From a virus, in the IMG/VR virus record IMGVR_UViG_3300025128_000400, positions 1 to 21,610 of that record: DNA of 21,610 bases; one strand, 5' to 3'. The notes beneath the pieces were generated by a model. That model was not told where the DNA came from. It worked only from the letters and a program-made list of their open reading frames with translations, and made no database searches. Of the stretch, positions 5,457 through 17,071 are shown in pieces (the stretch's first letter is position 1; every line of letters starts with the position of its first letter). The translations under genes and the position numbers were made by a program.

Positions 5457-5567
5457 CTTTTATTACACCTTTATTTTATCCCGACCCAACCACCCATTAA
5501 GTTAAACTACAAGTCAATAGTATTCCAAGTAAAAACCCCAGTTATTATTAGAAAAAATTGTAGGATT

Positions 5568-5617: not shown

Positions 5618-5618
5618 T

Positions 5619-5640
5619 AAATAACTTTTTAGTTATTTTT
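5619..5640 (+). terminator. Weak AT-rich hairpin followed by T residues (attenuator-like)
   Basis: AAATAACT (5619-5626) and AGTTATTT (5631-5638) can form an 8-bp stem with a TTTT loop, followed by two more T. With one G-C pair it is weak for a terminator. It lies in the leader of the early transcript and might slow polymerase, or be a protein site. Confidence 0.25.
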
Positions 5641-5696
5641 CATTTTGATTATTATTTTAATAATTAATTAACTAGTCATAATAAGGAGAATATATT

Positions 5697-5960: not shown

Positions 5961-5983
5961 GCTTATGCCTACTTTACTTTTAA
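5952..5983 (+). terminator. Rho-independent terminator after the first early gene
   Basis: GTAGAGTAGGC (5952-5962) pairs with GCCTACTTTAC (5967-5977), an 11-bp stem with one G.U pair and a TTAT loop, followed by TTTT. The stop codon (5958-5960) is inside the stem. Because the early genes continue on the same strand, this must be leaky, antiterminated, or followed by another promoter. Confidence 0.7.
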
Positions 5984-6145
5984 TTATATTACACTTAACT
6001 GTGTGATGTAGAGTGTGCAACTGCTCAAGTGTCGTAAGAATAAGACGTGTATCTACTAAATAATAGAAAGTCTAACATACAGACAACAGGGATTATTACT
6101 TCTATTTTTACGATAACTTGGGTATTAACTTTTGTAGGAGAAATT
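5982..6145 (+). ncRNA. Intergenic structured region 1, possible pseudoknot
   Basis: This gap of about 165 bases has no convincing gene. ACACTT (5991-5996) can pair with AAGTGT (6027-6032), and GTAGA (6008-6012) with TCTAC (6052-6056); these two cross, giving a pseudoknot. A separate hairpin AATAGAA/TTCTATT (6062-6068 with 6100-6106) encloses GTCT/AGAC (6070-6073 with 6081-6084). The stems are short, so chance is possible. An open frame beginning with GTG at 6047 runs into the next gene, but has no ribosome-binding site. Confidence 0.3.
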
Positions 6146-6283
6146 ATGTTTACAATTAAAGAATTACAAGATAGAGTACCAGACTTAATTGGTAAGGTTT
6201 ATACGGAAGGAACAGTTACTGTGATTGAGATTAATCATGGTCGTATAAAGATAATGCCAAAGCATCGTAAGCCTGGAAAGTAA
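6146..6283 (+). CDS. Small early protein, 45 residues
   Basis: A short protein of unknown function, MFTIKELQDRVPDLIGKVY to a basic end KIMPKHRKPGK. The start at 6146 is chosen because it follows GTAGGAG at the right distance; the same frame is open further upstream to 6047 but without a ribosome-binding site. Its centre (VYTEGTVTVIEINHGRIKI) looks like beta strands. It is bounded on both sides by gaps with candidate RNA structures. Confidence 0.6.
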   Translation: MFTIKELQDRVPDLIGKVYTEGTVTVIEINHGRIKIMPKHRKPGK

Positions 6284-6360
6284 GAAATACCCGCGTCCAA
6301 CAGCCGTTGAAGTCATACATATGGTGAGGTGTAAGACGGGAATTTTTCAACATAGGAGAG
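6284..6360 (+). ncRNA. Structured region 2: H-type pseudoknot before gene at 6365
   Basis: CCC (6290-6292) and GTC (6295-6297), with a 2-base bulge, pair with GACGGG (6335-6340). GTTGAA (6306-6311) lies in the loop of that stem and pairs with TTCAAC (6346-6351), beyond it. The two stems cross as in a classic H-type pseudoknot. CAAC (6298-6301) can also pair with GTTG (6306-6309), giving a competing hairpin. The last stem ends four bases before the AGGAG of the next gene, so a role in controlling its translation is possible. Confidence 0.4.
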
Positions 6361-6364
6361 TATT

Positions 6365-6640
6365 ATGACACAACATGAATGTTCTTGTGGCGACAAAGAG
6401 ATTAATCACGCGCATGATTTTCCAGAGTTAGGTTGTATTTGTTTAACTTGCAATAAGAACTCTTCTGAGTTTGAAGGTTCAGTGCTAGTTATGTATGATG
6501 AAGAAGTTGTTCATAATCTTAAAAGAATGATACCTCTTATAGAAAGTATGAAAACATCATTTGACCATGTAAGAGGTGATGTTGAAGCTCGTGAGATAAT
6601 GACTGAAACTTTAAAACGAGCAATAGAATTACTTAAATAA
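6365..6640 (+). CDS. Small Cys-rich protein, possible zinc binder
   Basis: A 91-residue protein with Cys and His clustered in the first 30 residues: H4, C7, C9, H16, H18, then CICLTC at about 24-29. This arrangement suggests a small zinc-binding fold. The rest (from residue 38) is helical, with a LKRMIPLIESMKTSF stretch and a terminal TETLKRAIELLK helix. The ATG follows AGGAGAG. Function unknown. Candidate RNA structures lie on both sides. Confidence 0.7.
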   Translation: MTQHECSCGDKEINHAHDFPELGCICLTCNKNSSEFEGSVLVMYDEEVVHNLKRMIPLIESMKTSFDHVRGDVEAREIMTETLKRAIELLK

Positions 6641-6750
6641 TTTGAGTGTACTTTGGTGGTAGCGCGTAACCAACTGTCGAGAAACGGTTCCCCACATTGC
6701 GCAGGGTCATGTACCGAATTTATGATGGGATAAGGTCGAAGACACTCAAA
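6641..6750 (+). ncRNA. Structured region 3: 110-nt element closed by 9-bp stem
   Basis: TTTGAGTGT (6641-6649) pairs perfectly with ACACTCAAA (6742-6750), enclosing about 90 bases. Inside, AACTGT/ACGGTT (6672-6677 with 6684-6689, one G.U) is a hairpin nested in GCGCG/TGCGC (6662-6666 with 6698-6702, one G.U), and TCAT/ATGA (6707-6710 with 6722-6725) may form another. I count 47% GC here, well above the surrounding coding DNA. No open frame or tRNA cloverleaf fits. The element starts right after the stop codon of the previous gene. Confidence 0.5.
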
Positions 6751-6910
6751 GATTTTAAAAAGGTGCTATCGTAGCAAGCCACTACCTTGTAATCAAAATG
6801 TGGCTCTAGAATTATGGGCATTGTTATCTTATACCTACAACTACAATAGAGTGTAAGAAGTGGACTCCGCATCGTCCTTACTTCATAGCAATGCCCTATC
6901 TTTTTTAACA
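6751..6910 (+). ncRNA. Structured region 4: tandem hairpins/pseudoknots ending in a T-run
   Basis: In the 5' part AAGGT (6760-6764) can pair with ACCTT (6784-6788), which sits in the loop of AGCCAC/GTGGCT (6777-6782 with 6800-6805), with hairpin GCTA-TCG-TAGC (6765-6775) in between. In the 3' part GGGCATTGTTAT (6816-6827) pairs with ATAGCAATGCCC (6885-6896), 12 bp with one G.U, and stacks on GAAGTGGAC with GTCC-TT-ACTTC (6857-6865, 6874-6884). The 12-bp stem is followed by TATC and six T, so the end may act as a terminator. No gene is seen. Confidence 0.5.
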
Positions 6911-6929
6911 CATACAAAAGGATTTAATC

Positions 6930-7466
6930 ATGAAAAAACAAAGATATAAAGCATCAACTAATTTAAATGTTGGAACAATGGTACAAGGTATGATTGGAGA
7001 AAACAATGTGGCTAATCTATTTCTTACAAATGGATATATAGTTACTAGACCAGATGTAGACTTAGGTGTAGATATGGTTGTTTGTAAACCTAAAAAATGG
7101 GGTAAGAAAATGTTAATGAAAAATTGGATTAGTATACAAGTAAAGTACAATACAAGAATTTCAGAAACAACATTTGGTACATCATTGCGTGTAAAAGTAA
7201 CTCCAAATAGTTGTGATTATGTTGCTATACCTTTAGACAAAGGAGTAACAAACATACATTATCATCATAATAAAGTTATATTCTTCCCTCAACCTTCAAA
7301 GTTAAAAGGTAAAGAGTATCTTAGAGAATTTGCTTTTGAAGATGTTAAAGTAGCAAAGAATAATGGATTGGTTTATAAAGATTGTTACGGAGATTCACAA
7401 GTTTCTTATAGAAATCAACATAAACGAAGATGGGCAAAGAATTTTTATGAATTGCCTACAACTTAA
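6930..7466 (+). CDS. PD-(D/E)XK-type endonuclease, small
   Basis: A 178-residue protein with the layout of a small PD-(D/E)XK nuclease: an N-terminal helix with E24 (MIGENNVANLFL), then GVDMVV with D48, then ISIQVKYN with Q70 and K72, the Q-x-K variant of the E-x-K motif. This order is shared by archaeal-type Holliday-junction resolvase-like and restriction-like phage nucleases. The C-terminal part is basic (QHKRRWAKNF). It could process DNA ends, resolve branches, or attack host DNA. The ATG is preceded by AAAAGGATTTAATC. A RuvC-like resolvase is also encoded later, so this one may not be the main resolvase. Confidence 0.72.
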   Translation: MKKQRYKASTNLNVGTMVQGMIGENNVANLFLTNGYIVTRPDVDLGVDMVVCKPKKWGKKMLMKNWISIQVKYNTRISETTFGTSLRVKVTPNSCDYVAIPLDKGVTNIHYHHNKVIFFPQPSKLKGKEYLREFAFEDVKVAKNNGLVYKDCYGDSQVSYRNQHKRRWAKNFYELPTT

Positions 7467-7480
7467 AACAAGGAGTAACA

Positions 7481-7585
7481 ATGGATACAATAGTAGGAAT
7501 TATTATAGCAATCGCATACATATACGGATTGTATCAAACAGTAACAGGAGATAAGGAAAAATCAGATGTTGAAAATGTTGAATAA
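7481..7585 (+). CDS. Short single-span membrane protein
   Basis: A 34-residue protein: MDTIVGIIIAIAYIYG is a hydrophobic stretch long enough for one membrane span, followed by a charged tail (GDKEKSDVENVE). A strong AAGGAG precedes the ATG and the gene fits tightly between neighbours, overlapping the next start by 20 bases. The function is unknown; tiny early membrane proteins of phages often act in host takeover or superinfection exclusion, but this is inference. Confidence 0.6.
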   Translation: MDTIVGIIIAIAYIYGLYQTVTGDKEKSDVENVE

Positions 7586-7745
7586 AGTAAATAAAAAAGA
7601 AGTAGATGATGCTTTTGATTATTTTATGGACACAGGAAGATTAGAAGAATTAAAAGAAGATGATGTCTATTATATCAAAGCATTGTTAAAGTATGTAGCA
7701 AATATACATAATACTAAATTAATATTCTCAGAGGAGGAAAAGTAA
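7566..7745 (+). CDS. Small acidic protein
   Basis: A 59-residue protein from ATG 7566, with a possible internal start at 7575. It is acidic and helical: after a basic N-terminus (MLKMLNKVNKKE) it has a D/E-rich middle and a K-A-L-L-K-Y-V-A-N-I-H segment. The stop codon overlaps the next start (TAATG at 7743-7747), and its end carries the GAGGAGG ribosome-binding site of that gene. Function unknown. Confidence 0.6.
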   Translation: MLKMLNKVNKKEVDDAFDYFMDTGRLEELKEDDVYYIKALLKYVANIHNTKLIFSEEEK

Positions 7746-8269
7746 TGATAGCAGTAACAAGTAAAAAAGCATACAAAGAGATTAATGAAGAAGGCGTTCT
7801 TAAGACACAAAAAGATAAAATTATGTACGTTATACGTTCACATTATGATATACATAGAAAAGGAATATCTAATAACGAGATTGCAGAACTTACAGGATTT
7901 AGAATCAATGCAGTAAGTGGTAGAGTTAATGACTTAAAAAAAGATGGAGTTATTGAAACTTTTAATAAAGTAAAATGCTCTATTACTAAACGTTTGGTTA
8001 ATACAGTTGTTCCTAAAGATAACTTTTATTTCAGAGAACAATTAAATAAACTTAGATTGTTGCTTGGTGTTTACAATTACGACAAGCATACAATAACTCA
8101 AAATAGTAAAAACGAAACAACGTTAAGAGTTGGATATTGGGAAAGAATACCAAAGAATGATTTAATAAGATTGCAAGTAAATAGTCAATTGTTATTAACT
8201 CCAAATTCTTATTATGAAGAAGATTGTGGAGATAAGTTTTGGTATGTTATAGAACCTATGATAGTATGA
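7745..8269 (+). CDS. Winged helix-turn-helix protein, probable regulator
   Basis: A 174-residue protein with a winged-helix domain at about residues 22-75: an I-M-Y-V-I-R helix, then GISNNEIAELTGFRINAVSG (turn and recognition helix) and R-V-N-D-L-K-K-D-G-V-I-E, the typical end of the recognition helix and wing. Such domains bind DNA; the GLTxxEIAexTGl pattern is common in phage replication and regulator proteins. The C-terminal half has no recognised domain. A GGAGG sits just before the ATG. It could control the divergent promoters near 5590, but nothing in the sequence proves which site it binds. Confidence 0.7.
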   Translation: MIAVTSKKAYKEINEEGVLKTQKDKIMYVIRSHYDIHRKGISNNEIAELTGFRINAVSGRVNDLKKDGVIETFNKVKCSITKRLVNTVVPKDNFYFREQLNKLRLLLGVYNYDKHTITQNSKNETTLRVGYWERIPKNDLIRLQVNSQLLLTPNSYYEEDCGDKFWYVIEPMIV

Positions 8270-8512
8270 AATTGGGCCTCTCAGTTTAGCGACAAAAGAT
8301 ACTCGTAGTATCTGAGCAACACGATGAAGACTTCGTCTGAAGTGTTAAACAAAAACTTAACAGGTTCATGAGACTATAGGCTGGCGTAAGTGCGCACATC
8401 GTACGTCAGCTTATACTCAAAAGTAATGATATGTGGATAGATATGACGGTTAATGAACGCTTCATCTAGTACGAGGCCTTCACGAAGTGACTGATTTAGC
8501 CGTCTATCTGTT
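8270..8512 (+). ncRNA. Structured region 5: large pseudoknotted RNA candidate
   Basis: A gap of about 290 bases without a gene holds the strongest RNA fold here. (a) GTTTAGC/GTTAAAC (8284-8290 with 8344-8350) encloses AGATACT-CGT-AGTATCT (8297-8313) and AGAC-TTC-GTCT (8328-8338). (b) TATAGGCTGGCGTA/TACGTCAGCTTATA (8375-8388 with 8402-8415) is 14 bp with two G.U pairs, extended by TGAG/CTCA across a 2-base bulge. (c) 8436-8453 pairs with 8496-8512, about 17 bp with one bulge and three G.U. (d) GGGCCTC (8274-8280) pairs with GAGGCCT (8473-8479) inside the loop of (c), forming a pseudoknot, between hairpins TGAA/TTCA and TCAC/GTGA. GC is 43% over 8369-8512. Confidence 0.6.
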
Positions 8513-8539
8513 GACTATAAGTATTGATATTATTAAATT
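8511..8539 (+). promoter_or_regulatory. Candidate promoter for the recombination genes
   Basis: TTGACT (8511-8516, 5 of 6 consensus) and TAAATT (8534-8539, 4 of 6) are 17 bases apart, directly after structured region 5. Transcription would begin near 8546, just before the AAGGAG of the gene at 8564. The match is fair; AT-rich context makes chance hits common. Confidence 0.35.
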
Positions 8540-8563
8540 TAGAATACATATAAGGAGAGATAT

Positions 8564-9295
8564 ATGGATGTTATTAAAGTATATACAGACTACCTTGCTC
8601 ATGTAAACAATGAAAGAAATGCAGAAAGAGAAGACGAAGAATTTCATGCATCTTCTTCTGGTAGTTGTTTTAGAAAACAAATGTATGGATTTTTTGGATA
8701 CGATTCAAAAGAACTAGATGATAAATCATTAAGATTATTAAGACTTGGTACTATTGTACATTCAGATTTTGAAAAAGCAATGTCTATGTACGAAGATAAT
8801 AATCCTCAAGAAGAAATTCATATTGAAAAAAAAGTAAGTATACCTAGATTAAATTTAGTTGGAACGTTTGATTTGGGAACACACTATGGTAACACTTTTA
8901 GTATTTATGATTACAAAACAGTAGCTGCTTACAAATGGACAACTAAGTTTGGTCGTAAACACAACAGAGTACCAACAACAGACAAAAACTATAAGTTACA
9001 ATTAGGTACTTATGGTCTTGCAATCAAAGAAGATAATAAAGATACTATAGTAAAACTTTTTCTATTATGGTATAACAAAAATACATCTATGATGCGAGAA
9101 CAAATTGTGGATAGTAGTTACATATCACAGGCAGAAGAATATTGGCTTGAAGTAAATACAATATTAAAAGAACATGGAGAAGATTTTGAACAATCTGATA
9201 TGTTAGAGCCTGGAATATCTTATGGAGTTCCTTTTGAAGATTGGGAATGTAGATATTGTCAATATAGTGACATCTGTCCAACACCAATAAAATAA
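8564..9295 (+). CDS. Cas4/RecB-like PD-(D/E)XK nuclease with probable Fe-S cluster
   Basis: A 243-residue exonuclease-like protein. The nuclease residues appear in order: H66 (GTIVHSDFE), D103 (VGTFDLG), D116 and K118 (YDYKT), and Q146 in YKLQLGTYG. One Cys near the N-terminus (C35 in SGSCFRKQ) and three at the C-terminus (C229, C232, C238 in CRYCQYSDIC) match the four Cys that hold a 4Fe-4S cluster in Cas4, AddB and related nucleases. Such enzymes resect double-stranded ends to single strands. It is followed directly by the annealing protein, forming an exonuclease/annealase pair as in phage recombination systems. Strong AAGGAG before the start. No CRISPR array or cas gene is nearby, so it is not a CRISPR Cas4. 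Confidence 0.87.
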   Translation: MDVIKVYTDYLAHVNNERNAEREDEEFHASSSGSCFRKQMYGFFGYDSKELDDKSLRLLRLGTIVHSDFEKAMSMYEDNNPQEEIHIEKKVSIPRLNLVGTFDLGTHYGNTFSIYDYKTVAAYKWTTKFGRKHNRVPTTDKNYKLQLGTYGLAIKEDNKDTIVKLFLLWYNKNTSMMREQIVDSSYISQAEEYWLEVNTILKEHGEDFEQSDMLEPGISYGVPFEDWECRYCQYSDICPTPIK

Positions 9296-9309
9296 ACACA
9301 AGGATAACA

Positions 9310-9936
9310 ATGAAAAACAATACACCTATTGTTGTAGATGAGTCTATGCTTACTGCAACAGATGAAATAAGAAAATCAATAACAGTCAAGCATAAGAAAG
9401 TTTCTTTTATAAAAACTCCTAAACCTTATATTAAACAAAAGGCTGGAATGGATTATGTAGAATATTCTTATATGAGAGATATTGCAGATAAAGAATTTGC
9501 AGGTTGGTCTTGGGAAATTATATCAACAGAAATGTTAGGTAGTGCAGCTTATGTAGTGCATGGTAGATTAAAATGGTACGATGAAGGTATTTGGAGAACA
9601 GGAGATATGGTAGCTGCTCATAGAATACAAACTAAAAGAGGGACCGGAGAATTTGTTGATATTGGTAACGATGTTAAAGCAGCCAATACAGATGCTATTA
9701 AAAAAGCATTTAATATGTATATGAATATTGCAGATGATGTTTACAGAAATCAAATAGAGGATATGGAGTTATCTGATGAAGAGAAGAATGATATACTTGT
9801 TCTTGCATCTGAAATAAGTGAAGAAAAGATGAGTAGCATACATATACTTATTAATAAAGGAGAACTAAACAAAGCAAACTACAAAGGTTCAATAAATAAA
9901 CTACAAAGAGAGATAGATAATGAGAAAAATAAATAA
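9310..9936 (+). CDS. Rad52-like single-strand annealing protein
   Basis: A 208-residue protein in which residues about 35-140 resemble Rad52/Rad22-type annealing proteins: a Y-V-E-Y-S-Y-M-R-D-I-A-D segment, F-A-G-W-S-W-E-I, then a beta-rich G-R-L-K-W-Y-D-E-G-I-W-R, V-A-A-H-R-I, and the signature V-D-I-G-N-D-V-K-A-A-N-T-D-A-I-K-K-A-F. In this family such proteins form rings and anneal complementary single strands. The C-terminal 60 residues are charged and helical. It lies right after the nuclease that would provide single strands and is followed by two small genes and an SSB-like protein. Good confidence for the family, less for the subfamily. Confidence 0.75.
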   Translation: MKNNTPIVVDESMLTATDEIRKSITVKHKKVSFIKTPKPYIKQKAGMDYVEYSYMRDIADKEFAGWSWEIISTEMLGSAAYVVHGRLKWYDEGIWRTGDMVAAHRIQTKRGTGEFVDIGNDVKAANTDAIKKAFNMYMNIADDVYRNQIEDMELSDEEKNDILVLASEISEEKMSSIHILINKGELNKANYKGSINKLQREIDNEKNK

Positions 9937-10213
9937 TTACGGAGAAGTTCATTCACTTTTACATGAAGAAGAATGTTATACAATTGGAACTAATGACGGA
10001 AAAGAATTTAGGAGAGTGGTTTATAAAGGGACTAGACTCTTAAATGGTAAAAGTATGATGATATTTAAAACAGAAGACAATAGTCGTCTAACAATAAATC
10101 CATCATTTCATACCTTCACAATAGAAGAACAACCACTTCCTCAACCAGATGATTTAAATAGTAGAGTGGATGTTTACATACAAAATAAAATAAAAGGAAA
10201 CTATAATGGGTAA
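9920..10213 (+). CDS. Small protein, unknown
   Basis: A 97-residue protein, start overlapping the end of the annealing protein gene by 17 bases. The sequence has alternating polar and hydrophobic residues suggesting mostly beta structure (CYTIGTNDGKEFRRVVYKGT) with a charged end. No family recognised. Its place between the annealing protein and the SSB-like gene suggests a role in recombination or replication. Confidence 0.65.
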   Translation: MRKINNYGEVHSLLHEEECYTIGTNDGKEFRRVVYKGTRLLNGKSMMIFKTEDNSRLTINPSFHTFTIEEQPLPQPDDLNSRVDVYIQNKIKGNYNG

Positions 10214-10475
10214 ACTTAAACAATCAGACCTTGACAGATTAAAAGAAGAAGGACTTCTTTCTGAGTCTGCTGAGAAAGCATTGAAGAAAACAAATTCTGT
10301 ATCAAAGAAAACCACTGCACCTAAGAGATTTATAAAGACAAAGAACGGAACATTTGTTTCACCTAGTCTTTATTTTCGTGGAGGTAGAGGACTTGAAGCA
10401 TCTGAAGAGATGTTAAAGTTTCAATCAGAATACGACAAACTAGTAAATAAATACACAACAACTAATAATAAATAA
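10206..10475 (+). CDS. Small basic protein, unknown
   Basis: An 89-residue Lys-rich protein, overlapping the previous gene by 8 bases, with AAAGGA before its start. The middle has VSKKTTAPKRFIKTKNGTF, a flexible basic linker, followed by SPSLYFRGGRGLEASEEML and a helical end. It may bind nucleic acid or a partner protein. No family recognised. Confidence 0.65.
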   Translation: MGKLKQSDLDRLKEEGLLSESAEKALKKTNSVSKKTTAPKRFIKTKNGTFVSPSLYFRGGRGLEASEEMLKFQSEYDKLVNKYTTTNNK

Positions 10476-10485
10476 GGAGAAAGTA

Positions 10486-11115
10486 ATGGCAAAAGCAATA
10501 GAAGCTGAGTTTGACCCATCTGCGCAAGTAGCATTTGTTCCTGTAGAAGAAGGTACATACCCTGCTCACATAACTGAATTGACGACCAAAGAAGTAAACA
10601 CAAGAGCAGGTCAAGCAATCATTGTTAATATGTCTTATACTCTAGCTGACGAAGCTGCTGAGGTTGAACAACCTTTGTACGAGATGGATGGATATAAGCA
10701 TAGATTAGATGTTAATGGTAGAAAGATACCTATTCTTAAAGATGGAGAACAAGAATACATACTAGGAACACATCTTCCAAAGAAAAAATTCTATGATAAT
10801 GGTTTCTTTGTATTTACTACTACAGAATCTGCTAATAAGAACAGTAGATACTTTAAGTTACTTGAATCATTAGGAATAGAACTTGAAGAAAACGATAGAG
10901 GTATTAAGAAACTTGTTCTTGTAGAAGATGAAGACGTAATAGGATTGCCTGTTTACGTTAAATTAGAAACACATTCTTATGTAACTAGAGACACTAAAGA
11001 CCTACCTCCTCATGAACAGGAGACTAGAACAGTCTTAAAAGCAAAAGAAGTTACATTGTGGGAAGGTGGAGAAAAGATAAGTCTAGAAGAACTTGAAGAT
11101 GACGTTCCTTTCTAA
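10486..11115 (+). CDS. Single-stranded DNA-binding-like protein
   Basis: A 209-residue protein with the pattern seen in phage SSB-like proteins: a beta-rich N-terminal half (VEEGTYPAHITELTTKEV, then QAIIVNMSYTLAD), a middle region with G-F-F-V-F-T, and a C-terminal part ending in an acidic tail with hydrophobic tip (EELEDDVPF). The tail closely resembles the DDDIPF tail by which bacterial SSB recruits partners. It would coat single strands during replication and recombination. The family name DUF669 fits by memory but was not tested. Preceded by a strong AAGGAG; the structured region 6 follows its stop codon. Confidence 0.72.
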   Translation: MAKAIEAEFDPSAQVAFVPVEEGTYPAHITELTTKEVNTRAGQAIIVNMSYTLADEAAEVEQPLYEMDGYKHRLDVNGRKIPILKDGEQEYILGTHLPKKKFYDNGFFVFTTTESANKNSRYFKLLESLGIELEENDRGIKKLVLVEDEDVIGLPVYVKLETHSYVTRDTKDLPPHEQETRTVLKAKEVTLWEGGEKISLEELEDDVPF

Positions 11116-11127
11116 CAAATAAAAAAA

Positions 11128-11245
11128 TGCCAAGAGATATTGTTTGGAATAACTAACTTATTCTAAGTAATTTTGAGACGAGGGTGGTGTGTATCCAACC
11201 CGTATACTCTCCATATATACTCGTCTCTCTCTCGGCATCACCCTC
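11128..11245 (+). ncRNA. Structured region 6: compact multi-stem pseudoknot
   Basis: Stems: A, TGCCAAGAGA/TCTCTCGGCA (11128-11137 with 11228-11237, one A.C mismatch); hairpin TGGAATAA/TTATTCTA (11145-11152 with 11158-11165); B, GAGACGAG/CTCGTCTC (11175-11182 with 11220-11227); D, GTGTAT/GTATAC (11189-11194 with 11202-11207, two G.U); C, GAGGGTGGTG/CATCACCCTC (11180-11189 with 11236-11245, one G.U). B and A 3' strands are adjacent with no gap. C crosses both; its core GGTGG/TCACC (11183-11187 with 11238-11242) is compatible with A, B and D at once, while the full 10-bp C competes. GC is 52% over 11175-11245. It ends nine bases before the GGAGAG of the next gene. Confidence 0.6.
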
Positions 11246-11263
11246 AAATGATAAGGAGAGACA

Positions 11264-11729: not shown

Positions 11730-11908
11730 ATCAAGTAACATCAATAGAACAAGAACTAAGAATAAAAATAGAATCATATGAACACAATTTAAAAAATATT
11801 AAATATATATTATCTTCAAAAGATGTAAAGACACACGCTAAAATAAGAAGAATAGAATATATAATAGATTCAATTGAAAATGAGATTGGTAATGAAAAAG
11901 ATTGCTAA
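11726..11908 (+). CDS. Small coiled-coil protein
   Basis: A 60-residue protein; start at 11726 chosen because it follows CGGAGGTAAAAACATT and overlaps the previous stop. The sequence is almost entirely helical with heptad-like spacing (IEQELRIKIESYEHNLKNI). Function unknown. Confidence 0.55.
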   Translation: MNQVTSIEQELRIKIESYEHNLKNIKYILSSKDVKTHAKIRRIEYIIDSIENEIGNEKDC

Positions 11909-12140
11909 ATACAAACAAAGTGAATACGATGCCAGAAAAGCAGATGCTTATATAAAGTATTGCATTAAGTGTTTAAAATGTTGGGAAGTAACAGTTGGTT
12001 CAGCTCAACTTAATGGTAAAAAAAGAAGAATAGTTCAATACTATGAAAACTTTGTATCTTATGGTAAAGAAAAAAAAATCTGTAACAATTGTAAAGGAGA
12101 GAACAATGACCAAAATGTCATGGATAAGTTATCTATGTGA
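11892..12140 (+). CDS. Small basic zinc-ribbon protein
   Basis: Starting at ATG 11892 (an in-frame TTG at 11874 is also possible) this is an 82-residue protein with Cys in the pattern CIKCLKC near residues 25-31 and CNNC near residues 66-69, which could bind zinc as a ribbon. The spacing between the pairs holds a basic beta-rich stretch (KKRRIVQYYENFVSYGKEKK). It may bind nucleic acid. It overlaps neighbours on both sides, typical of this operon. Confidence 0.6.
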   Translation: MKKIAKYKQSEYDARKADAYIKYCIKCLKCWEVTVGSAQLNGKKRRIVQYYENFVSYGKEKKICNNCKGENNDQNVMDKLSM

Positions 12141-12333
12141 ATCTGAAAATAGAGAAGCTTTGATAGAAGAAGTTGGTGTAGAACTTGCAGATGAGTTTTT
12201 GCACGCACATTATGAAATGAGAGATAATAGAGATAACCCTGCATACAATAAATTAAATGAAATTCACGATGAAATGCAGAAGGAGGTTAAACATGAAAAA
12301 ATGTCCAGCTTGCGGATACACTCCTCTAAGTAA
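12106..12333 (+). CDS. Small acidic protein
   Basis: A 75-residue acidic protein (MTKMSWISYLCESENREALI and following), start set by AAAGGAGAGAACA. Mainly helical; EMRDNRDNPAYNKLNEIHDE in the middle. Its 3' end overlaps the next gene by about 40 bases. Function unknown. Confidence 0.55.
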   Translation: MTKMSWISYLCESENREALIEEVGVELADEFLHAHYEMRDNRDNPAYNKLNEIHDEMQKEVKHEKMSSLRIHSSK

Positions 12334-12664
12334 AGGACAAAACATAAGTTTAAAGATTAGAAACTTAATGATAGAGAGAGAAAAGAAAACAATACAATCA
12401 CTAAATAAAATTGCAAAACTAATTATTGATAATGTTCCTCAAGACGATAGAATGTCTTATTACAAGTTTTTATATGGAATCAAAAATTGCAAGGATGACG
12501 TAGTCAGACATTGCATTGAGACATATTATAAAACAAGAGCATTTCAAAGTAATAAAGGATTTGCATATTTAAGAGCAATAATACAAAATCAATTCAAGAA
12601 TAACGATAAAATACTAGAGAATGAGAGACGAAGACTTGGTTCTGTACCACCAGTAATAGATTAA
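12293..12664 (+). CDS. Small protein with N-terminal CPxC knuckle
   Basis: A 123-residue protein; the start at 12293 follows a strong AAGGAGG. It begins MKKCPACGYTPLSKGQ, a single zinc-knuckle half, then helices with a basic C-terminal part (KNNDKILENERRRLG). The region YYKTRAFQSNKGFAYLRAII is reminiscent of small replication accessory proteins, but I cannot name a family. Structured region 7 begins at its stop codon. Confidence 0.6.
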   Translation: MKKCPACGYTPLSKGQNISLKIRNLMIEREKKTIQSLNKIAKLIIDNVPQDDRMSYYKFLYGIKNCKDDVVRHCIETYYKTRAFQSNKGFAYLRAIIQNQFKNNDKILENERRRLGSVPPVID

Positions 12665-12747
12665 AAGCTCCTCAAAAATTAATATAGAAAGTATGATTAA
12701 TGCTTTTCGTATTAATACTCGAGGTGGCCCTTATGTGAGGAGCTTTT
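12663..12747 (+). ncRNA. Structured region 7: 85-nt element closed by perfect 12-bp stem
   Basis: AAAAGCTCCTCA (12663-12674) pairs without mismatch with TGAGGAGCTTTT (12736-12747). The enclosed 61 bases contain ATTAATGC/GTATTAAT (12696-12703 with 12709-12716, one G.U, loop TTTTC), with AGT/ACT extending it across a bulge. ATTAAT occurs three times, so alternative pairings exist. The stem starts in the stop codon of the upstream gene and ends four bases before the AAAGGAG of the next. The 3' strand ends in four T, so it may double as a weak terminator. Confidence 0.55.
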
Positions 12748-12763
12748 ATAAAAGGAGAAAAAA

Positions 12764-12922
12764 ATGATAATGTTTGACATATCAGAATGGATAATTAATT
12801 TAGTAGTCTTAGGTCTAGGATTAGTATTATGGTGTTTAGCGATACTATTAATAGGAATGATAATTGCCATTAGTAATAAATGGATTAAAGAAAATTTAAT
12901 TAAACAAAGGAGAAGTAAATGA
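12764..12922 (+). CDS. Small membrane protein
   Basis: A 52-residue protein with a long hydrophobic stretch (IINLVVLGLGLVLWCLAILL continuing to IIAI), enough for one or two membrane spans, and a basic tail (KENLIKQRRSK). Tail charge suggests the C-terminus is in the cytoplasm. AAAGGAG precedes the ATG, and the stop overlaps the next start (ATGA at 12919-12922). Function unknown; a role in superinfection exclusion or as an early holin-like protein would be speculative. Confidence 0.65.
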   Translation: MIMFDISEWIINLVVLGLGLVLWCLAILLIGMIIAISNKWIKENLIKQRRSK

Positions 12923-13095
12923 GATATTATTGGGAAGCGTTGTTTAGCACAGAGTATTTCCCTTATTGGGAATTTACTATGCTTATGATGTTAGCTTTAC
13001 AATTAAGTTATTTGTGGAGACAACATAGAACAGAGAAAAAAATAGATGTAATAAACGAAACGTTAAATGAAGTTTTAGACGATTTATTAGATTAA
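12919..13095 (+). CDS. Small protein with one hydrophobic segment
   Basis: A 58-residue protein with an aromatic N-terminus (MRYYWEALFSTEYFPYWEF), a hydrophobic segment (TMLMMLALQLSYLW) and an acidic helical C-terminus (VINETLNEVLDDLLD). The start overlaps the preceding stop, and an AAAGGAG lies upstream. Possibly partners with the membrane protein encoded immediately before it. Unknown function. Confidence 0.6.
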   Translation: MRYYWEALFSTEYFPYWEFTMLMMLALQLSYLWRQHRTEKKIDVINETLNEVLDDLLD

Positions 13096-13114
13096 CATAA
13101 CAAAGGAGAGAGAT

Positions 13115-13921
13115 ATGTTACAAAATGCAAAATTTCCAGTAAAAGAAGTACCAGCTTATTGGGAATCAACTAATAAAAATAAAGGAAATGGCACTAGTGT
13201 TAGAGAGATGTCAACAGGATATAAATTCATAGTAAGAGAAGATACTAACAAAGTTCTTAGTTGTATGACCAATTCTTATAAATTAGTAAGAAATGACGAT
13301 ATAATTAAAACTGCTAATCCTCTTATTAAAAAGATGGGTGGAGAAATATCTAAAGTAAATGTATTAAAAGAAGGTTCAAAGACTGTTATGAATTGGACAT
13401 TTCCAAATAACAAAATAAGAATGTCTAAAGATGATGAGTTAATTCCAGAAATAAATATAGTTAATAGTTATGATGGAAGTCTTGGTCTTAACATACTTGG
13501 TGGTGCTTTTAGAATAATATGCTCCAATGGATTAGTAATTGGATTCGTAGCATCTAAATACACTAACAAACATATTAAAACAAACATTGAACTTAATGAC
13601 CTAGATAGAATCATTGAAGAAACTATTGGTAACACATCAAACATATTTAAAGATGAGTTTCCTATTCTTGCAGAAACTAAGTTTAAAGAAAAACACTTAA
13701 TTGAGTTTATAAAGTTATTTCCAGAGTATGCAAATACATTGGTTACAAATAAACTAATTATTGAAAATCCTAAAACGTTTTGGGATTTGTTAAATGTAGG
13801 TACTAACATTCTTACGCATCACATGAACAGAGAAATGGTCTCAACTCACAACCTTGAAGGCAGACTTTACCCTAAAGTAAAGAAACTAGCACTTAAAGAG
13901 GCTGACGTTGCCATCTCTTGA
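13115..13921 (+). CDS. DUF932 family protein
   Basis: A 268-residue protein resembling the DUF932 family found in many phages and plasmids: an N-terminal VPAYWESTNK region, S-C-M-T-N-S-Y-K-L-V-R-N-D-D-I, I-N-I-V-N-S-Y-D-G-S-L-G-L and F-R-I-I-C-S-N-G-L-V, then a helical C-terminus. The family's biochemical role is not established; these genes commonly sit in replication/recombination regions. Strong AAAGGAG before the start. The 3' end overlaps the methylase start by 14 bases. Confidence 0.8.
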   Translation: MLQNAKFPVKEVPAYWESTNKNKGNGTSVREMSTGYKFIVREDTNKVLSCMTNSYKLVRNDDIIKTANPLIKKMGGEISKVNVLKEGSKTVMNWTFPNNKIRMSKDDELIPEINIVNSYDGSLGLNILGGAFRIICSNGLVIGFVASKYTNKHIKTNIELNDLDRIIEETIGNTSNIFKDEFPILAETKFKEKHLIEFIKLFPEYANTLVTNKLIIENPKTFWDLLNVGTNILTHHMNREMVSTHNLEGRLYPKVKKLALKEADVAIS

Positions 13922-14738
13922 TTGGTATGATTGCCCTATAGTTATACCTTATTATGGTGGGAAGTATGAGTTGAGCAGAAAGTTTGTTCCTCTCATACCC
14001 CATCATGAAAGATACTTCGAAGTTTTCTCTGGAGGATTGTCCATGTTCTTTCGTAAAACAAAAGTTAAATGGAATGTTCTTAACGATAAAGATAATAATA
14101 TAGTAAATCTATATATGTGTATTATACATGAATTAGATGAACTTGTTAAACATCTTGAGTGGATGCCTAAATCCAGAGAACTCTTTGAAAACTTTAGGAC
14201 CGACATAAAAGAAAAGAAACCTATTGATATTCCAGACCCTTACCAAGCTGCAAAGTATTTTTATTGCATACGACATAGTTTCAACAAATTGATTCACACT
14301 CCTATGTCAATGGGAAAAGATTGGAAAAGGAATTGGGAAGAAGAGTTTAAGTATTCAAGAATGAAAATCAACGGTTCAACTATTGAGAACTTAGATTTTG
14401 GAGCTCTTGTTGATAGATACAAACCCAACAGCAATGATTTTTGGTACTTAGACCCACCATATTTTATTGCAACAGACAAAGGTGATTACTATCAACACAA
14501 CTTCACTGCTGGAGACCATATAAGATTGAAAGAAAAAGTAGACGAACTAGATTCTAAAGGTGCTAAATTTATGGTCTCATACGACTACAGAGAGGAAGTG
14601 TATGAGTTATACAAAAACTACAATGTAATGACCATTGATTTGAAATACATGGGCGCTACGGATGAACATAGAGCAAAGAAAAGAAAAGAGTATTTAATAT
14701 TAAACTATGAACCTGTCAATCAGACAAGTTTATTTTAA
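13908..14738 (+). CDS. dam: DNA adenine methyltransferase, D12 (Dam) class
   Basis: A 276-residue D12-class N6-adenine methyltransferase. The motifs are PYYGGK (14-19, start of motif X), FEVFSGG (37-43, the AdoMet-binding motif I), LNDKD (58-62) and the catalytic DPPY (182-185). The start is TTG at 13908, placed by an AGAGG six bases upstream and a 14-base overlap with the DUF932 gene. D12 enzymes usually methylate GATC, but no GATC was found in this window, so either the target differs or the phage has lost its own sites. It may protect DNA from host restriction or alter host DNA. Confidence 0.9.
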   Translation: MPSLDWYDCPIVIPYYGGKYELSRKFVPLIPHHERYFEVFSGGLSMFFRKTKVKWNVLNDKDNNIVNLYMCIIHELDELVKHLEWMPKSRELFENFRTDIKEKKPIDIPDPYQAAKYFYCIRHSFNKLIHTPMSMGKDWKRNWEEEFKYSRMKINGSTIENLDFGALVDRYKPNSNDFWYLDPPYFIATDKGDYYQHNFTAGDHIRLKEKVDELDSKGAKFMVSYDYREEVYELYKNYNVMTIDLKYMGATDEHRAKKRKEYLILNYEPVNQTSLF

Positions 14739-14748
14739 AGGAGGATAG

Positions 14749-16071
14749 ATGAAAGATATAAAAGACGTTCAAGTAAAAGTTATGCCATCTAATGTTGACG
14801 CTGAAGAAGCAATGCTTGGTAGCATACTTCAAGGTGGAGATATTGAAATGGAAATAGCAATGGCTTGGATAAGAGAGGACGAAGCACTTTATTCTACAAA
14901 GTGTATGAACATATTTCAATGTATGAAAAACTTGTACAATAATAAAGTTCCTATTGATACAATTACATTATCTGATAAGATGCAAGATATGTTTGGATTG
15001 AAAGATAGTTTGTACATATTAGATTTACAGGATAAAAGTCCTAGTAAAGTAAAAGTAGAATACTATGCTAAAATTGTATGGGAAAGATACGTTCAAAGAG
15101 AGACTGCTAAATCTGCTCAAGACTTACTTAATGCTAGTTATGAAAACTACAATGAAGTAGGTAGAATTATTGAGAACCATAGCAAACTTATTGATGAACT
15201 AAGAAACATACAACCTTCCAAAGCAAGAGACATTTCTGATATTATTGAAGAGACTAACGTAGCATTGCAAGAACAATCTAATACAATACAGTTTGGTCTT
15301 GGTAAACTTGACAACTTCGCAGGTGGTATGACTCGTAAAGAAATTACTGTATTGGGTGGTAGACCTGGCCATGGTAAAACTACGTTGATGTTGAACATTG
15401 TGCGAGGTTTGATTGAACAAGGATACAATGTAATGCTATTCAATCGTGAGATGAGTAATGTAGAAACAATGAAAAAGTTGTACGTCATGGAATCTAGAGA
15501 CATTACATACTCAATGATTCGTTCTGGAATAACAGATGATAAGAAACCAGCTCTTACTAGTGTGTCTGAATATGTTAAGAATAAGTATGAAAATCTTACA
15601 GCATTTGACGACATACGAGGATTAGATGATTGTATTCGTGAAATCAATAAAGGTAAACCCGATGTTATTATTGATGATTACATTCAATTGATTGATGTAG
15701 GAATGACAAACAAAGATAGAAGGTTTGAAATTGAGAAGATTGTACAAGATTACAAATGGGCAGTTAAACAAAACAATTGTTCTGCAATTCTTGTATCTCA
15801 ACTTAATCGTGATATTGAAAAGCGATTCGACCCTAGACCTAGAATGAGTGACTATGCAGAATCTGGTGTAATAGAACAAACAGCAGAGTCAGCAATGTTC
15901 GTATTTTATGGATACAACTTTGATAGTGATAAATACAACAGATACAAAAGTGAAGTCATTGTAGCTAAAAGCAGATATGGTACTATTGGAACCTACCCAA
16001 TGGGATTCAATGGTAACAAATGCAAATTTTACAATGACCATAAAGAGGCGGAACGAGACACAGTTGCGTAA
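14749..16071 (+). CDS. dnaB: Replicative DNA helicase, DnaB type
   Basis: A 440-residue hexameric helicase that unwinds DNA at the fork. The N-terminal domain begins with the family's PSNVDAEEAMLGSIL pattern. The RecA-like domain has Walker A GRPGHGKTT (204-212), Walker B VIIDDYIQL (306-314) and motif H4-like SQLNR (350-354) followed by P-R-M-S-D-Y-A-E-S-G-V-I-E-Q. Length is normal for the family. No primase or polymerase was found in the window, so the helicase probably recruits host primase and polymerase. AAAGGAGG precedes the ATG. Confidence 0.95.
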   Translation: MKDIKDVQVKVMPSNVDAEEAMLGSILQGGDIEMEIAMAWIREDEALYSTKCMNIFQCMKNLYNNKVPIDTITLSDKMQDMFGLKDSLYILDLQDKSPSKVKVEYYAKIVWERYVQRETAKSAQDLLNASYENYNEVGRIIENHSKLIDELRNIQPSKARDISDIIEETNVALQEQSNTIQFGLGKLDNFAGGMTRKEITVLGGRPGHGKTTLMLNIVRGLIEQGYNVMLFNREMSNVETMKKLYVMESRDITYSMIRSGITDDKKPALTSVSEYVKNKYENLTAFDDIRGLDDCIREINKGKPDVIIDDYIQLIDVGMTNKDRRFEIEKIVQDYKWAVKQNNCSAILVSQLNRDIEKRFDPRPRMSDYAESGVIEQTAESAMFVFYGYNFDSDKYNRYKSEVIVAKSRYGTIGTYPMGFNGNKCKFYNDHKEAERDTVA

Positions 16072-16354
16072 ATCTTGTAGGGGATGCTACTATGGCATCG
16101 GAGAAAAATGTTATTGGTTTAGAGATGTTGAAGGAACATCCCCTAAAGAGATTCCTGTAAGCGTTTTTGATAAAGGATGTAAACATTATAAAAATACTAA
16201 TATGGTAGATTCAGAATCAGAACTACTTATATTAATATCAAATAAGTTTGATGGAGAGATACTTAGCGATAAGTATGAAATATATAGAAAACCTTACAAA
16301 AAGAAATATGTAAAAAGTTCACATAACTATTCATATAGGAGAGATGCACAATGA
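16034..16354 (+). CDS. Small Cys-rich protein after the helicase
   Basis: The frame is open through 16354. I start it at ATG 16034; an alternative TTG at 16064 would shorten it to 96 residues, and neither has a good ribosome-binding site, so the start is uncertain and translation may be coupled to the helicase it overlaps. The core is SCRGCYYGIGEKCYWF, then F-D-K-G-C-K-H-Y: four Cys (C-x2-C-x6-C and a later C) that could hold zinc or a small Fe-S cluster. The C-terminus is basic. The stop overlaps the resolvase start (ATGA at 16351-16354). Confidence 0.6.
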   Translation: MTIKRRNETQLRKSCRGCYYGIGEKCYWFRDVEGTSPKEIPVSVFDKGCKHYKNTNMVDSESELLILISNKFDGEILSDKYEIYRKPYKKKYVKSSHNYSYRRDAQ

Positions 16355-16839
16355 AAACAATAATAGGTATAGACCCTGGCGCTAGTGGGGCTATTACTTT
16401 TACTAACTCAGAGAATAAAAAACTTTATATTCACAAATGTCATCCAAGCATATCTGGTAGAGCAGTTATAGTAGAAATGGCTAAAAGTGCTTTTAAAGGA
16501 GATGATATAGTAGCATACATAGAAAAAGTACACGCTATGCCACATGATGGTAGAAGTTCTCTGTTTAAGTTTGGAGTAAACTACGGAGTTTGGCTTGGTA
16601 TACTTGCTTCTAAGCAAATACCGACAGTAGAAGTATCACCACAAAAGTGGATGAATTTTTGGAAAGAATATCATGGAGTAGGATTACCAAAAAAAAAGAA
16701 AGAAAGAAAGAATGTTCTAAAGGATTTTGCTTCAGTATATCTTGACGAGAATAAGAAAGCTACACTATGGAACGCAGATAGTATATTAATAACAATGTAT
16801 GGAATATACATGGAAAAGGAGAAAGAAAATGGAATGTAA
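16351..16839 (+). CDS. RuvC-like Holliday-junction resolvase
   Basis: A 162-residue RNase H-fold protein of the RuvC type. The acidic active-site residues are visible: D8 in GIDPGASG, E58 in AYIEKVHAMP and D143 in WNADSILI. The M-P-x-D-G segment followed by L-F-K-F-G-V-N-Y-G-V-W is typical of phage RuvC-like proteins. It would cleave four-way junctions from recombination and free branches before packaging. It is the penultimate gene of the early arm, and its start overlaps the stop of the Cys-rich gene upstream. Confidence 0.85.
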   Translation: MKTIIGIDPGASGAITFTNSENKKLYIHKCHPSISGRAVIVEMAKSAFKGDDIVAYIEKVHAMPHDGRSSLFKFGVNYGVWLGILASKQIPTVEVSPQKWMNFWKEYHGVGLPKKKKERKNVLKDFASVYLDENKKATLWNADSILITMYGIYMEKEKENGM

Positions 16840-17014
16840 AGATAGTATAGACGTATGGATTAAAACTTGTAGTAGTTTAAAAGACACTATAAAATTAGCA
16901 GTAAAAAAAAATGATTCAGATTTTATTATTGAATTGTTAGAAAAATTTAGAGAAGCAACTGAACAATTAGAAACGTTAATTAAAATGAGTAAAAAAGAAA
17001 GATTTACAGCATAA
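16829..17014 (+). CDS. Last early gene, small helical protein
   Basis: A 61-residue helical, amphipathic protein (ELLEKFREATEQLETLIKM stretch), starting at ATG 16829 after AAAGGAG and overlapping the resolvase stop. It is the last plus-strand gene. Its final codons form the 5' arm of a hairpin in the convergent region. Function unknown. Confidence 0.6.
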   Translation: MECKDSIDVWIKTCSSLKDTIKLAVKKNDSDFIIELLEKFREATEQLETLIKMSKKERFTA

Positions 17015-17071
17015 TCTCCTTATGCTGACTAGAGGATAAGGGGGCAGATTATTTACGTTTGCCCTCTTTTT
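17007..17071 (+). terminator. Convergent terminator region with alternative/pseudoknotted hairpins
   Basis: CAGCATAA/TTATGCTG (17007-17014 with 17020-17027) is a perfect 8-bp hairpin with loop TCTCC. A competing stem pairs CTCCTTAT with ATAAGGGG (17016-17023 with 17036-17043, one T.G). A third stem pairs GGGCA (17042-17046) with TGCCC (17060-17064), followed by TCTTTTT, a normal intrinsic terminator for plus-strand transcription. The loop TCTCC could also pair with the G-run, making a pseudoknot. The minus-strand gene ends at 17049, so this is the boundary of both arms. Confidence 0.6.

Follow-up and report, generated by a model that had tools for sequence, protein, structure and literature searches.

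What occupies the longer gaps in the early operon of this virus, and why should such gaps be kept there? The window studied here, meaning the whole stretch of 21,610 nt that was analysed, comes from an uncultured, probably marine, bacterial virus, and the initial annotation had proposed that seven of its gaps fold. The fold energy of each gap was compared with that of 200 dinucleotide shuffles, on the + strand (sense) and antisense, yielding the following z scores.

5982-6145: sense -2.6, antisense -0.5
6284-6360: sense -0.2 (no excess), antisense -0.1
6641-6905: sense -3.0, antisense -1.7
8270-8512: sense -3.5, antisense -0.5
11128-11245: sense -4.8, antisense -4.2 (a small difference)
12663-12747: sense -6.5, antisense -4.0
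17007-17071: sense -4.7, antisense -2.9

Six gaps thus exceeded their shuffles in stability, and only 6284-6360 fell away from the proposal. The antisense fold was weaker in all seven gaps, slightly so at 11128, as expected if G.U pairs matter. The raised GC content, first noted for three counted stretches (43-52%), was found in five gaps (42-45%), but 5982-6145 (31%) and 12663-12747 (33%) lie near the coding windows (31%). In the window itself, 59 coding windows of 120 nt served as control and showed a mean z of -0.65, with 7% below -3. We then used a comparison set of 77 non-redundant loci, comprising the window and 76 relatives, in which early-operon gaps (n=177) had a mean sense z of -2.25, with 33% below -3, compared with -0.82 and 4% for coding pieces and -0.55 and 4% for virion-gene gaps from the same loci. 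The antisense mean of the early gaps was -1.21, and the sense fold was the stronger in 134 of 177.

No Rfam family, including riboswitches and ribozymes, matched the whole window at the gathering score, and positions 5450-17150 gave zero matches even at E up to 5. ARAGORN predicted 0 tRNA genes in the window, with RF00005 likewise lacking an Rfam match there, and neither program matched a group I intron or tmRNA; the competing identities first named (tRNA, intron, tmRNA) were not encountered in the window. The same Rfam scan of 27 of the 76 relatives returned GOLLD once, tRNA twice and nothing else. Compensatory changes, the check then proposed, were present in homologous gaps and support 5987-6122, 6641-6750, 6816-6896, 8273-8418, 8429-8518, 11128-11243 (the pseudoknot) and 12663-12747. 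These observations support most of the window gaps as structured RNAs absent from Rfam.

The most widespread element, M5, lies behind g11.

10486-11115, + strand: g11, probable single-stranded-DNA-binding protein (weak fold matches)
11128-11243, + strand: M5 pseudoknot RNA between g11 and g12, with P1 at 11128-11137/11228-11236
11175-11181/11221-11227, + strand: M5 P2
11182-11188/11237-11243, + strand: M5 P3

M5 was found in 49 of the 77 loci; 13 of its 23 pairs changed on both sides, and 91.5% of 483 cells were paired. In the P3 pseudoknot, which joins the apical loop to a downstream strand, all cells of the 7 pairs were paired (100%) and 4 pairs changed on both sides. A side hairpin between P1 and P2, outside this count, was seen by eye in most members and is apparently missing, again by eye, in one subclade (L061-like). 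The topology described as common to several gaps, an upstream strand pairing into the loop of a downstream stem, was not borne out as general: in M5 a loop strand pairs downstream, and the others are read as closed domains. The identity of g11 as an SSB is probable: its best fold matches are ssDNA-binding proteins (best E 0.0065, none reaching E 0.001), and one of 12 homologues matched ssDNA-binding in PHROG (E 0.035), with no convincing sequence match in Pfam or PDB.

The gap after g03 contains two supported elements and a spacer.

6641-6750, + strand: M3a RNA, a closed multi-helix domain immediately 3' of g03
6752-6812, + strand: spacer segment between M3a and M3b, a putative H-type pseudoknot read by eye
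6816-6896, + strand: M3b RNA, a three-way junction with closing helix 6816-6825/6887-6896 and two hairpins

M3b matched 24 times across 23 of the 77 loci, and in further contigs. In its closing helix P1, counted over 26 of 36 distinct copies, 4 of 10 pairs changed on both sides and 1 of 260 cells was unpaired; single folds were made for nine members and L040. Both hairpin loops are conserved, one being CACAACTACAAT-like and the other CTCCGCATC. At least eight different gene families follow M3b, and the nearest recognised gene upstream of the CTCCGCATC hairpin is g01, g02, g03, g06 or g11, depending on the locus. M3a occurs in 5 of 77 loci, starting at most 5 nt from the preceding stop, with 4 of 36 pairs changed on both sides and 7 gap or broken cells. 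Part of the spacer is matched in three relatives (L046, L049 and L063).

Two further elements precede g07, the second running into a promoter-like block.

8273-8418, + strand: M4a RNA, whose match begins 1 nt past the upstream stop codon
8429-8518, + strand: M4b RNA, a long hairpin (22 outer pairs, almost uninterrupted) with a 3' arm that enters the promoter
8511-8539, + strand: promoter-like TTGACT-17-TAAATT upstream of g07, from a consensus scan

M4a was found in 4 of 77 loci, downstream of two unrelated genes; in these four sequences, 2 of 43 pairs changed on both sides and 0 were broken, and its fold was strand-specific (z -2.9 sense, +0.2 antisense). M4b occurs in 7 of 77 loci, with 1 of 27 pairs changed on both sides, 9 varying one-sidedly and 0 broken. 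The promoter-like sequence recurs as a conserved block in 65 of 77 loci, never more than 18 nt 5' of the next called start.

At the 3' side of the operon, two elements were distinguished.

12663-12747, + strand: M6 RNA, after g17, with a 12-bp closing stem (12663-12674/12736-12747) and inner hairpins
17003-17071, + strand: early operon 3' end, with hairpin CAGCATAA..TTATGCTG, a second hairpin and a T run

M6 is present in 13 loci, including the window, with a GTTGGC-like motif in the relatives. Its closing stem is rewritten in sequence between subgroups while pairing is kept, and in some relatives the closing stem of M6-like elements is followed by a terminal T run. The last gap does fold, but 17007-17071 sits at the convergent junction of the + and - operons and is better read as an end-of-operon hairpin pair than as an intergenic module; the element recurs in 8 of 77 loci, and a simple terminator scan does not list 17003-17071.

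The beginning of the operon comprises the following.

5697-5960: g01
5951-5978, + strand: terminator-like hairpin at the g01 end, upstream of M1, from a consensus scan (listed as 5947-5982)
5987-6122, + strand: M1 RNA, between g01 and g02, with a 5' hairpin and a long helix (6024-6039/6106-6122)
6146-6283: g02
6284-6355, + strand: conserved candidate element in the gap before g03, z -0.2

M1 matched 12 times across 11 of 77 loci. Among five close relatives, 29 consensus pairs included 1 changed on both sides, with 1 broken cell. In four of seven distant copies, the 5' arm is different and pairs with 15-16 of the 17 bases in the 3' arm, and the remaining three reach just 12-13 of 17. The gap at 6284-6360 is conserved, its element recurring in a single relative, L057, where 72 columns align at 87.5% identity, and its structure is putative. 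The hairpin at 5951-5978, just 5' of the first gap, was absent from the initial annotation; of 27 loci, 16 have such a hairpin behind g01, compared with 0 of 27 random pieces.

The positions of these gaps were conserved while the RNAs occupying them changed. Behind g11, 62 of 63 loci leave a gap of 80 or more bases, and the remaining locus, L010, has an RNA there; gaps this long also follow g01 in 27 of 27 and g03 in 9 of 10 loci, and are rare after g07 (0/72), g08 (1/71) and g10 (2/66), and the slots after g02, g06 and g17 are filled in 17/32, 25/60 and 13/50 loci. Gaps in the g11 slot had a mean z of -2.8 sense and -2.0 antisense (35 non-redundant gaps), and those in the g01 slot -3.3 and -0.8 (20 gaps). 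Removal of the first 45 nt of the g01 gap, where many loci have the terminator-like hairpin, left -2.0 and +0.1 (18 gaps). The g03-slot gaps were weakly structured as a set (-1.8 sense, -1.1 antisense; 7 non-redundant). In 65 loci, the g11 slot held M5 in 49, an unrelated closed RNA in seven, an M3b-like hairpin in two and an M6-like element alone in one. Among the 77 loci, ARAGORN predicted tRNA-Asn in L088, where it occupies the g11 slot, tRNA-Met in L076, and tRNA-Met between g01 and g02 in L090; the last is uncertain, since Rfam confirms the first two and lists none in L090. In L084, the interval from g03 to g06 holds GOLLD, a giant, cage-forming RNA (RF02032, 156.2 bits against a cut-off of 150, E 1.5e-41, whole model 1-416).

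The tRNAs and GOLLD in relatives' slots, together with the nearly constant g11 gap, favour processing or decay boundaries and/or free RNA genes, so that the functions first listed as candidates can be narrowed somewhat. We read the gaps as exchangeable slots for self-contained RNA modules, most likely forming cis boundaries between cistrons, with some occupants perhaps also acting in trans, and give this a probability of about 0.38. The modules would be transcribed inside early and middle mRNAs, the slot staying in the phage group as its module is replaced by unrelated RNAs, including tRNAs and GOLLD. After g11, where the slot is practically never empty, and probably after g01, the common job would most likely be in cis: the folded domain may block exonucleases or be cleaved at its edges, allowing the neighbouring mRNA segments to decay and be translated independently. 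The tRNAs, GOLLD and probably M3b, with its invariant loops, would presumably also act alone once freed. The constancy of the g01 gap is partly explained by its terminator-like hairpin, and the strong loop conservation of M3b exceeds what a mere barrier needs. Phage tRNAs occur in many intergenic places, and finding three tRNAs and one GOLLD among the 77 loci might be due to chance.

Alternatively, the modules may be free-standing RNA genes, cut from the early transcript like tRNAs and acting in trans (in host takeover, counter-defence, RNA assembly or packaging), with the slots as permissive landing sites. We regard this as possible, if tentative. Stand-alone RNAs share the same slots, M3b precedes many gene families, M4a begins 1 nt behind two unrelated genes, and in M3a, M3b, M4b and M6 the two ends of the element pair with each other in a closing helix; furthermore, many loci leave the slot after g02, g06 or g17 unfilled, a pattern that fits cargo better than a boundary that has to be there. 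However, cargo would not require the g11 slot to be almost never empty despite unrelated occupants, and promoters were not in excess in the consensus scan (53 found, 60.4 expected). A bolder version, somewhat doubtful at present, would have reserved RNA seats in which at least half a dozen non-Rfam RNA classes alternate with tRNAs and GOLLD; several classes, with M3b and M5 at their head, would then be functional RNAs of new kinds that might act in trans in takeover or counter-defence and be swapped as cassettes like small anti-defence genes.

Translation control of the next gene, by protein- or metabolite-responsive leaders with M5 as a g11-responsive pseudoknot resembling the leader of T4 gene 32, is unlikely. 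Modules often stop a short distance 5' of a ribosome-binding site, M5 usually 17-50 nt from the next called start; by eye, AAGGAGA sites could be paired by pyrimidine strands in M5 and M6, and the conserved M3b loops could bind a ligand. Nevertheless, control of one downstream gene fits the M3b family badly given its widely varying downstream genes, the distance from M5 to g12 ranges from 18 to 454 nt, and M4a and M4b lie upstream of the promoter, hence outside a g07 leader made from there. Transcription control, by attenuation or put-type RNA antitermination, appears improbable. It is conceivable near M1, where the hairpin after g01 suggests that passage of the polymerase into the later genes may be controlled, and the T runs of some M6-like elements are also consistent with it, but M1 lies downstream, not upstream, of that hairpin and the remaining modules are scattered along the operon. 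Moreover, terminator-like hairpins followed g11 in 2 of 63 loci compared with 3 of 63 random pieces, and 4 were found in 5400-17200 compared with 2.9 expected. Antitermination of the put type, one of the functions first listed, fits most elements badly because they extend over 7 kb, one directly upstream of a second promoter. New self-cleaving ribozymes processing the polycistronic transcript would explain boundary behaviour, and the folds are compact, with a pseudoknot or junction, helices that vary and unpaired bases that do not; such ribozymes are nevertheless very improbable, as several unrelated folds would all need to be ribozymes and Rfam ribozyme families gave zero matches in the window and the 27 relatives scanned.

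Whether as boundaries between cistrons, which we favour, or otherwise, one operon carries no fewer than six RNAs that covariation supports and Rfam lacks, their positions conserved more than their sequences. Since positions outlast sequences, the operon offers a system in which two wider questions can be tested, namely, the role of phage structured RNAs such as GOLLD, one of which occurs at the site of these modules, and whether phage operons are generally built with RNA boundaries between cistrons. M5 and M3b, being small, well supported and easy to make, are good targets for structural and functional work.

Several known systems invite comparison. The put antitermination RNA lies between an early promoter and the terminators overcome, whereas the modules span 5.99 kb to 12.7 kb, with the divergent promoter region at 5457-5696 and the nearest terminator-like hairpin (5951-5978) upstream of M1. 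T4 gene 32 has an autoregulatory pseudoknot in its leader; M5 likewise adjoins the gene of a probable ssDNA-binding protein, but downstream of g11 and outside its leader. The RNase III processing hairpins of the T7 type, near-continuous duplexes of about 20 bp between early genes, resemble M4b (22 outer pairs), the 3' hairpin of M4a (19 pairs) and M1 (a bulged helix of 21 pairs), unlike M3b, M5 and M6, whose helices of 7-13 pairs are combined with junctions or a pseudoknot. In tRNA punctuation, tRNAs act as boundaries between cistrons, the same idea as proposed here, and a tRNA lies in the g11 slot of L088, while ARAGORN alone places another in the g01 slot of L090; the window elements, however, are not tRNAs, and cutting by RNase P or Z is not needed. 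Fremin et al. in 2023 reportedly surveyed viral contigs by covariation for candidate phage structured RNAs, and the window elements may be among them. Most M5 members resemble by eye, with no homology claimed, the layout of flavivirus class 1 xrRNAs, a three-way junction whose apical-loop strand pairs 3' of the closing stem (PMC5760640), but the M5 pseudoknot is long (7-10 bp), the side hairpin is apparently missing from one subclade, and no common sequence was noticed. Class 1 xrRNAs thread their 5' end through a ring and halt 5'-3' exonucleases. Finally, GOLLD is described as a structured RNA carried by phages, of unknown function and frequently close to tRNA islands (PMC12286853). The window elements are shorter (about 80-150 nt compared with 400 or more) and did not match RF02032 at the gathering score or at E up to 5, yet the relative L084 carries its GOLLD in the g03-g06 region, where modules of the window sit.

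The initial annotation had held that seven longer gaps of the early operon all fold into structured RNAs. When compared with dinucleotide shuffles, six of these gaps were more stable on the plus strand (z -2.6 to -6.5), whereas 6284-6360 showed no excess stability (z -0.2); antisense folds were weaker than sense folds in all seven. Raised GC, taken at first as a further mark, was absent from the first (31%) and sixth (33%) gaps. The excess stability extended to the whole group, which comprises the window and 76 relatives: 177 non-redundant early gaps gave a mean z of -2.25 in sense and -1.21 in antisense, with 33% of sense values below -3, against -0.82 (4% below -3) for 120 coding pieces and -0.55 (4%) for 25 gaps between minus-strand virion genes. 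Sense was stronger than antisense in 134/177 early gaps and 69/120 coding pieces. The elements had also been called undescribed, and indeed cmscan returned no Rfam match at gathering score in the window and none at E up to 5 in 5450-17150. We conclude that the structured RNAs of the window are real and belong to no Rfam family. No earlier report of them was found in the literature searched, and they may be among the candidate structured RNAs that Fremin et al. reportedly surveyed in viral contigs in 2023. The motif of one promoter-slot RNA (GTGGTGGCACGTGCAT..), searched in viral_contigs, occurred in 3 contigs, all within this phage group. The modules and neighboring elements are as follows:

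5457-5696: divergent promoter region with a TATACCCCCTATATGGGGGATT palindrome
5951-5978: terminator-like hairpin at the stop codon of g01
5987-6122, plus strand: folded module M1
6641-6750, plus strand: folded module M3a
6816-6896, plus strand: three-way junction M3b
8273-8418, plus strand: folded module M4a, which includes a long hairpin
8429-8518, plus strand: long hairpin M4b
8505-8563: promoter-like block TTGAYT..TAA..TTGATATTRTTAAATTT, directly ahead of g07
11128-11243, plus strand: pseudoknot M5
12663-12747, plus strand: module M6, with a 12-bp closing stem
17007-17071: two hairpins at the head-on junction of the early and virion operons

The 21,610-base virus record carries packaging and virion genes on the minus strand and early and replication genes on the plus strand from 5697. 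Several gene names are our own reading of the sequences: g07 reads as a PD-(D/E)XK nuclease, g08 as an annealing-type protein with distant Polaribacter-phage relatives, g11 as a probable ssDNA-binding protein, g21 as a Dam-like methylase, and g22 as a DnaB-like helicase. Megablast of the window and blastn of 8170-9310 found no close named relative in the phage collection; for g08 the relatives there reach only 29%, in two Polaribacter phages, and the terminase showed 23-24% among the matches listed. With g07 and g08 as queries, 95 related loci were collected, and 77 remained, window included, after redundancy removal. L002 (IMG/VR contig 3300006929_000042) encodes g01-g25 proteins identical to those of the window as far as compared (g16 excepted) and differs from it by at least one base. 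The only relative found in the bacterial genome collection, L096 (JABGXK010000065.1), lies on a contig of 3.7 kb from a Flavobacteriales MAG, a weak host hint that may reflect a binning error.

Compensatory changes were found in the homologous gaps. In M5, helices P1 and P2 are nested and P3 links the P2 loop to bases just past P1. Pairing covered 91.5% of the 483 cells in 21 distinct block sequences (P2 100%, P3 100%, P1 78%), and 13/23 pairs had changed on both sides, counts that are biased towards the structure because the helix-block register, including that of P1, was set by hand. Paired share, both-sided pairs, both-sided cells, and covariation score were each reached by 0/500 shuffles, while the count of further pair types (27) was ordinary (166/500), and sliding the partner by 1-3 columns lowered pairing to 46-58%. 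In a distant member, L053, a G-to-A change in P2 is accompanied by C-to-T changes in each of the two bases with which it could pair, one in P2 and one just past P3, which hints at strand exchange between these two helices. For M3b, 26 of 36 distinct copies were counted, omitting near-duplicates, one truncated copy, the interrupted copy, and that of L040; 4 of its 10 closing pairs had changed on both sides, with 1 unpaired cell. The divergent L040 copy has a wholly different closing stem and the same two loop motifs. Covariation was also assessed with our own all-pairs test, simplified from the R-scape idea and using a tree-preserving null. This stricter test was weak overall, giving a single pair with E < 0.05 in M5 (in P3, with E 0 over 30 nulls, followed by a P3 pair at E 2.6 and a P1 pair at E 3.1) and one significant pair in M3b (E 0.025).

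The other modules showed both-sided changes as follows: 4/36 pairs in M3a (7 gap or broken cells), 2/43 in M4a, 1/27 in M4b (9 more on one side, none broken), and 1/29 in M1 among close relatives. In seven distant M1 copies, 15-16 of 17 3'-arm bases pair with other bases in four and 12-13 in three, and the closing stem of M6 has been rewritten among subgroups with pairing kept. M4a and M4b contain long hairpins of a size cut by RNase III, and M4a starts 1 nt behind the stop of two unrelated genes. No single common fold was found for M5, M3a, M3b, M4a, M4b, M1, and M6, and a blast component joining 203/386 gaps was rejected as one family, being a chain of local matches in the part inspected. 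Behind g11, the M6-like module of L061, compared with that of L059, consists of a simple GGGGAGTT..AACTCCCCTTTT hairpin, with closing stem and T run unchanged.

The most interesting part of these findings is the combination of conserved slots and swapped occupants. Using a simple home-made gene caller and profile hits, on which these counts depend, gaps of at least 80 bases were found after g11 in 62/63 loci (a closed RNA is nevertheless present at this place in L010, the one exception), after g01 in 27/27, and after g03 in 9/10, but after g07 in 0/72, g08 in 1/71, and g10 in 2/66. Slots after g02, g06, and g17 were filled in 17/32, 25/60, and 13/50 loci, respectively. With gaps cut at 260 bases and the length of the L010 g11 gap set by hand, mean z in sense and antisense was -2.8 and -2.0 for non-redundant g11 gaps (n=35), -3.3 and -0.8 for g01 (n=20), -5.1 and -3.4 for g17 (n=5), and just -1.8 and -1.1 for g03 (n=7). 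A gap after g20 (25/44 loci) was discarded since, in the window at least, it reflects a miscalled g21 start codon (TTG start 13908). The block ahead of g07, probably a middle promoter, is strongly conserved in 65/77 loci, even beside unrelated flanks; between it and the preceding gene, some relatives carry different stretches that look closed by eye, and in others coding sequence reaches right to it. The tiny basic protein g02 (6146-6283, 45 aa), a candidate RNA binder, varies in early-region position across many relatives and sometimes adjoins an RNA module.

The g11 slot holds M5, 12 to 463 nt from g11, in 49/65 loci and another closed RNA with a conserved CTGACCGAAGTATGA in 7; the rest have an M3b-like hairpin (2), an M6-like module alone (1), a GTTGGC-bearing sequence (2), or other occupants (4), namely, a tRNA-Asn 15 nt behind the stop codon in L088 and unclassified sequences in L069, L089, and L094. 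An M6-like module occurs in seven g11-slot loci, with M5 behind it in 6/7. Because presence is constant and identity changes, a role of the position is suggested, and at this slot it seems that any stable folded RNA would serve, a tRNA included. Comparison of relatives narrowed the functions listed by the initial annotation. Intercistronic structures that protect or separate mRNA segments are an established route to unequal expression of neighboring genes. As the best explanation, tentative at a probability of roughly 0.4, a folded RNA in a slot would form a boundary separating or shielding mRNA segments so that adjacent genes are expressed differently, and g11, encoding a probable ssDNA-binding protein, would be a gene expected to need such treatment.

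Free RNA genes that travel within the operon would account at least as well for the tRNAs, the GOLLD RNA, and the mobility and conserved loops of M3b, and both readings may hold for different modules. An Rfam scan of 27/76 relatives found one GOLLD RNA (RF02032), two tRNAs, and nothing else. The GOLLD RNA (L084 3673-4077, 405 bases) lies between g03 and g06 homologues, the place of M3a and M3b in the window, and its position in an early operon is a useful anchor for GOLLD function. L076 has a tRNA-Met behind g01 and two small ORFs (ARAGORN and Rfam), and L090 has one between g01 and g02 homologues, in the M1 slot (ARAGORN; not in the Rfam listing). M3b, with its conserved loops, is mobile among loci: the nearest recognized gene upstream of its CTCCGCATC hairpin is g01, g02, g03, g06, or g11, and its downstream genes belong to at least eight families (hand count on the gene map). 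A pattern search for M3b gave 59 stretches, about half true by eye. In L032 (7222-7373), an M3b copy is split between its two hairpins by additional sequence with potentially complementary ends (ATAGTGTG/CACACTAT), as if one RNA had inserted within another. Kissing of two M3b loops was rejected by eye, the loops not being complementary, and tRNA mimicry by the loop CTCCGCA was likewise weighed and dropped.

At g01, the terminator-like hairpin, which spans the stop codon or closely follows it, was found in 16/27 loci and 0/27 random pieces, its stems changed yet paired in relatives, compared with 2/63 loci and 3/63 random pieces after g11. Much early transcription may end there, and read-through into the operon may be regulated at this hairpin; we consider such transcription control improbable as the general role of the slot RNAs. 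Without their first 45 nt, g01 gaps (n=18) kept a mean z of -2.0 in sense and +0.1 in antisense, with 8 below -2. At the other end, 17007-17071 is structured as proposed, and its two hairpins are kept in eight loci; it was absent from a simple terminator scan list and is best read as the 3' end of the early operon rather than as one of the series. The loop TCTCCTT of its 17003-17026 hairpin, conserved in aligned loci, complements the phage's common AAGGAGA ribosome-binding site. The 5457-5696 region, conserved in many relatives, has no excess RNA fold (z -0.6) and is therefore perhaps a DNA element, such as an origin or operator.

Pairing of pyrimidine strands of M5 (11221-11236) and M6 (12667-12673) with AAGGAGA sites downstream of them might act as a switch, or may be trivial given that these sites are purine-rich. 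The pairing layout of M5 is like that of flavivirus class 1 xrRNAs, reported to halt bacterial RNase J1 in vitro as well (PMC5760640); this is a likeness of layout rather than membership of that class.
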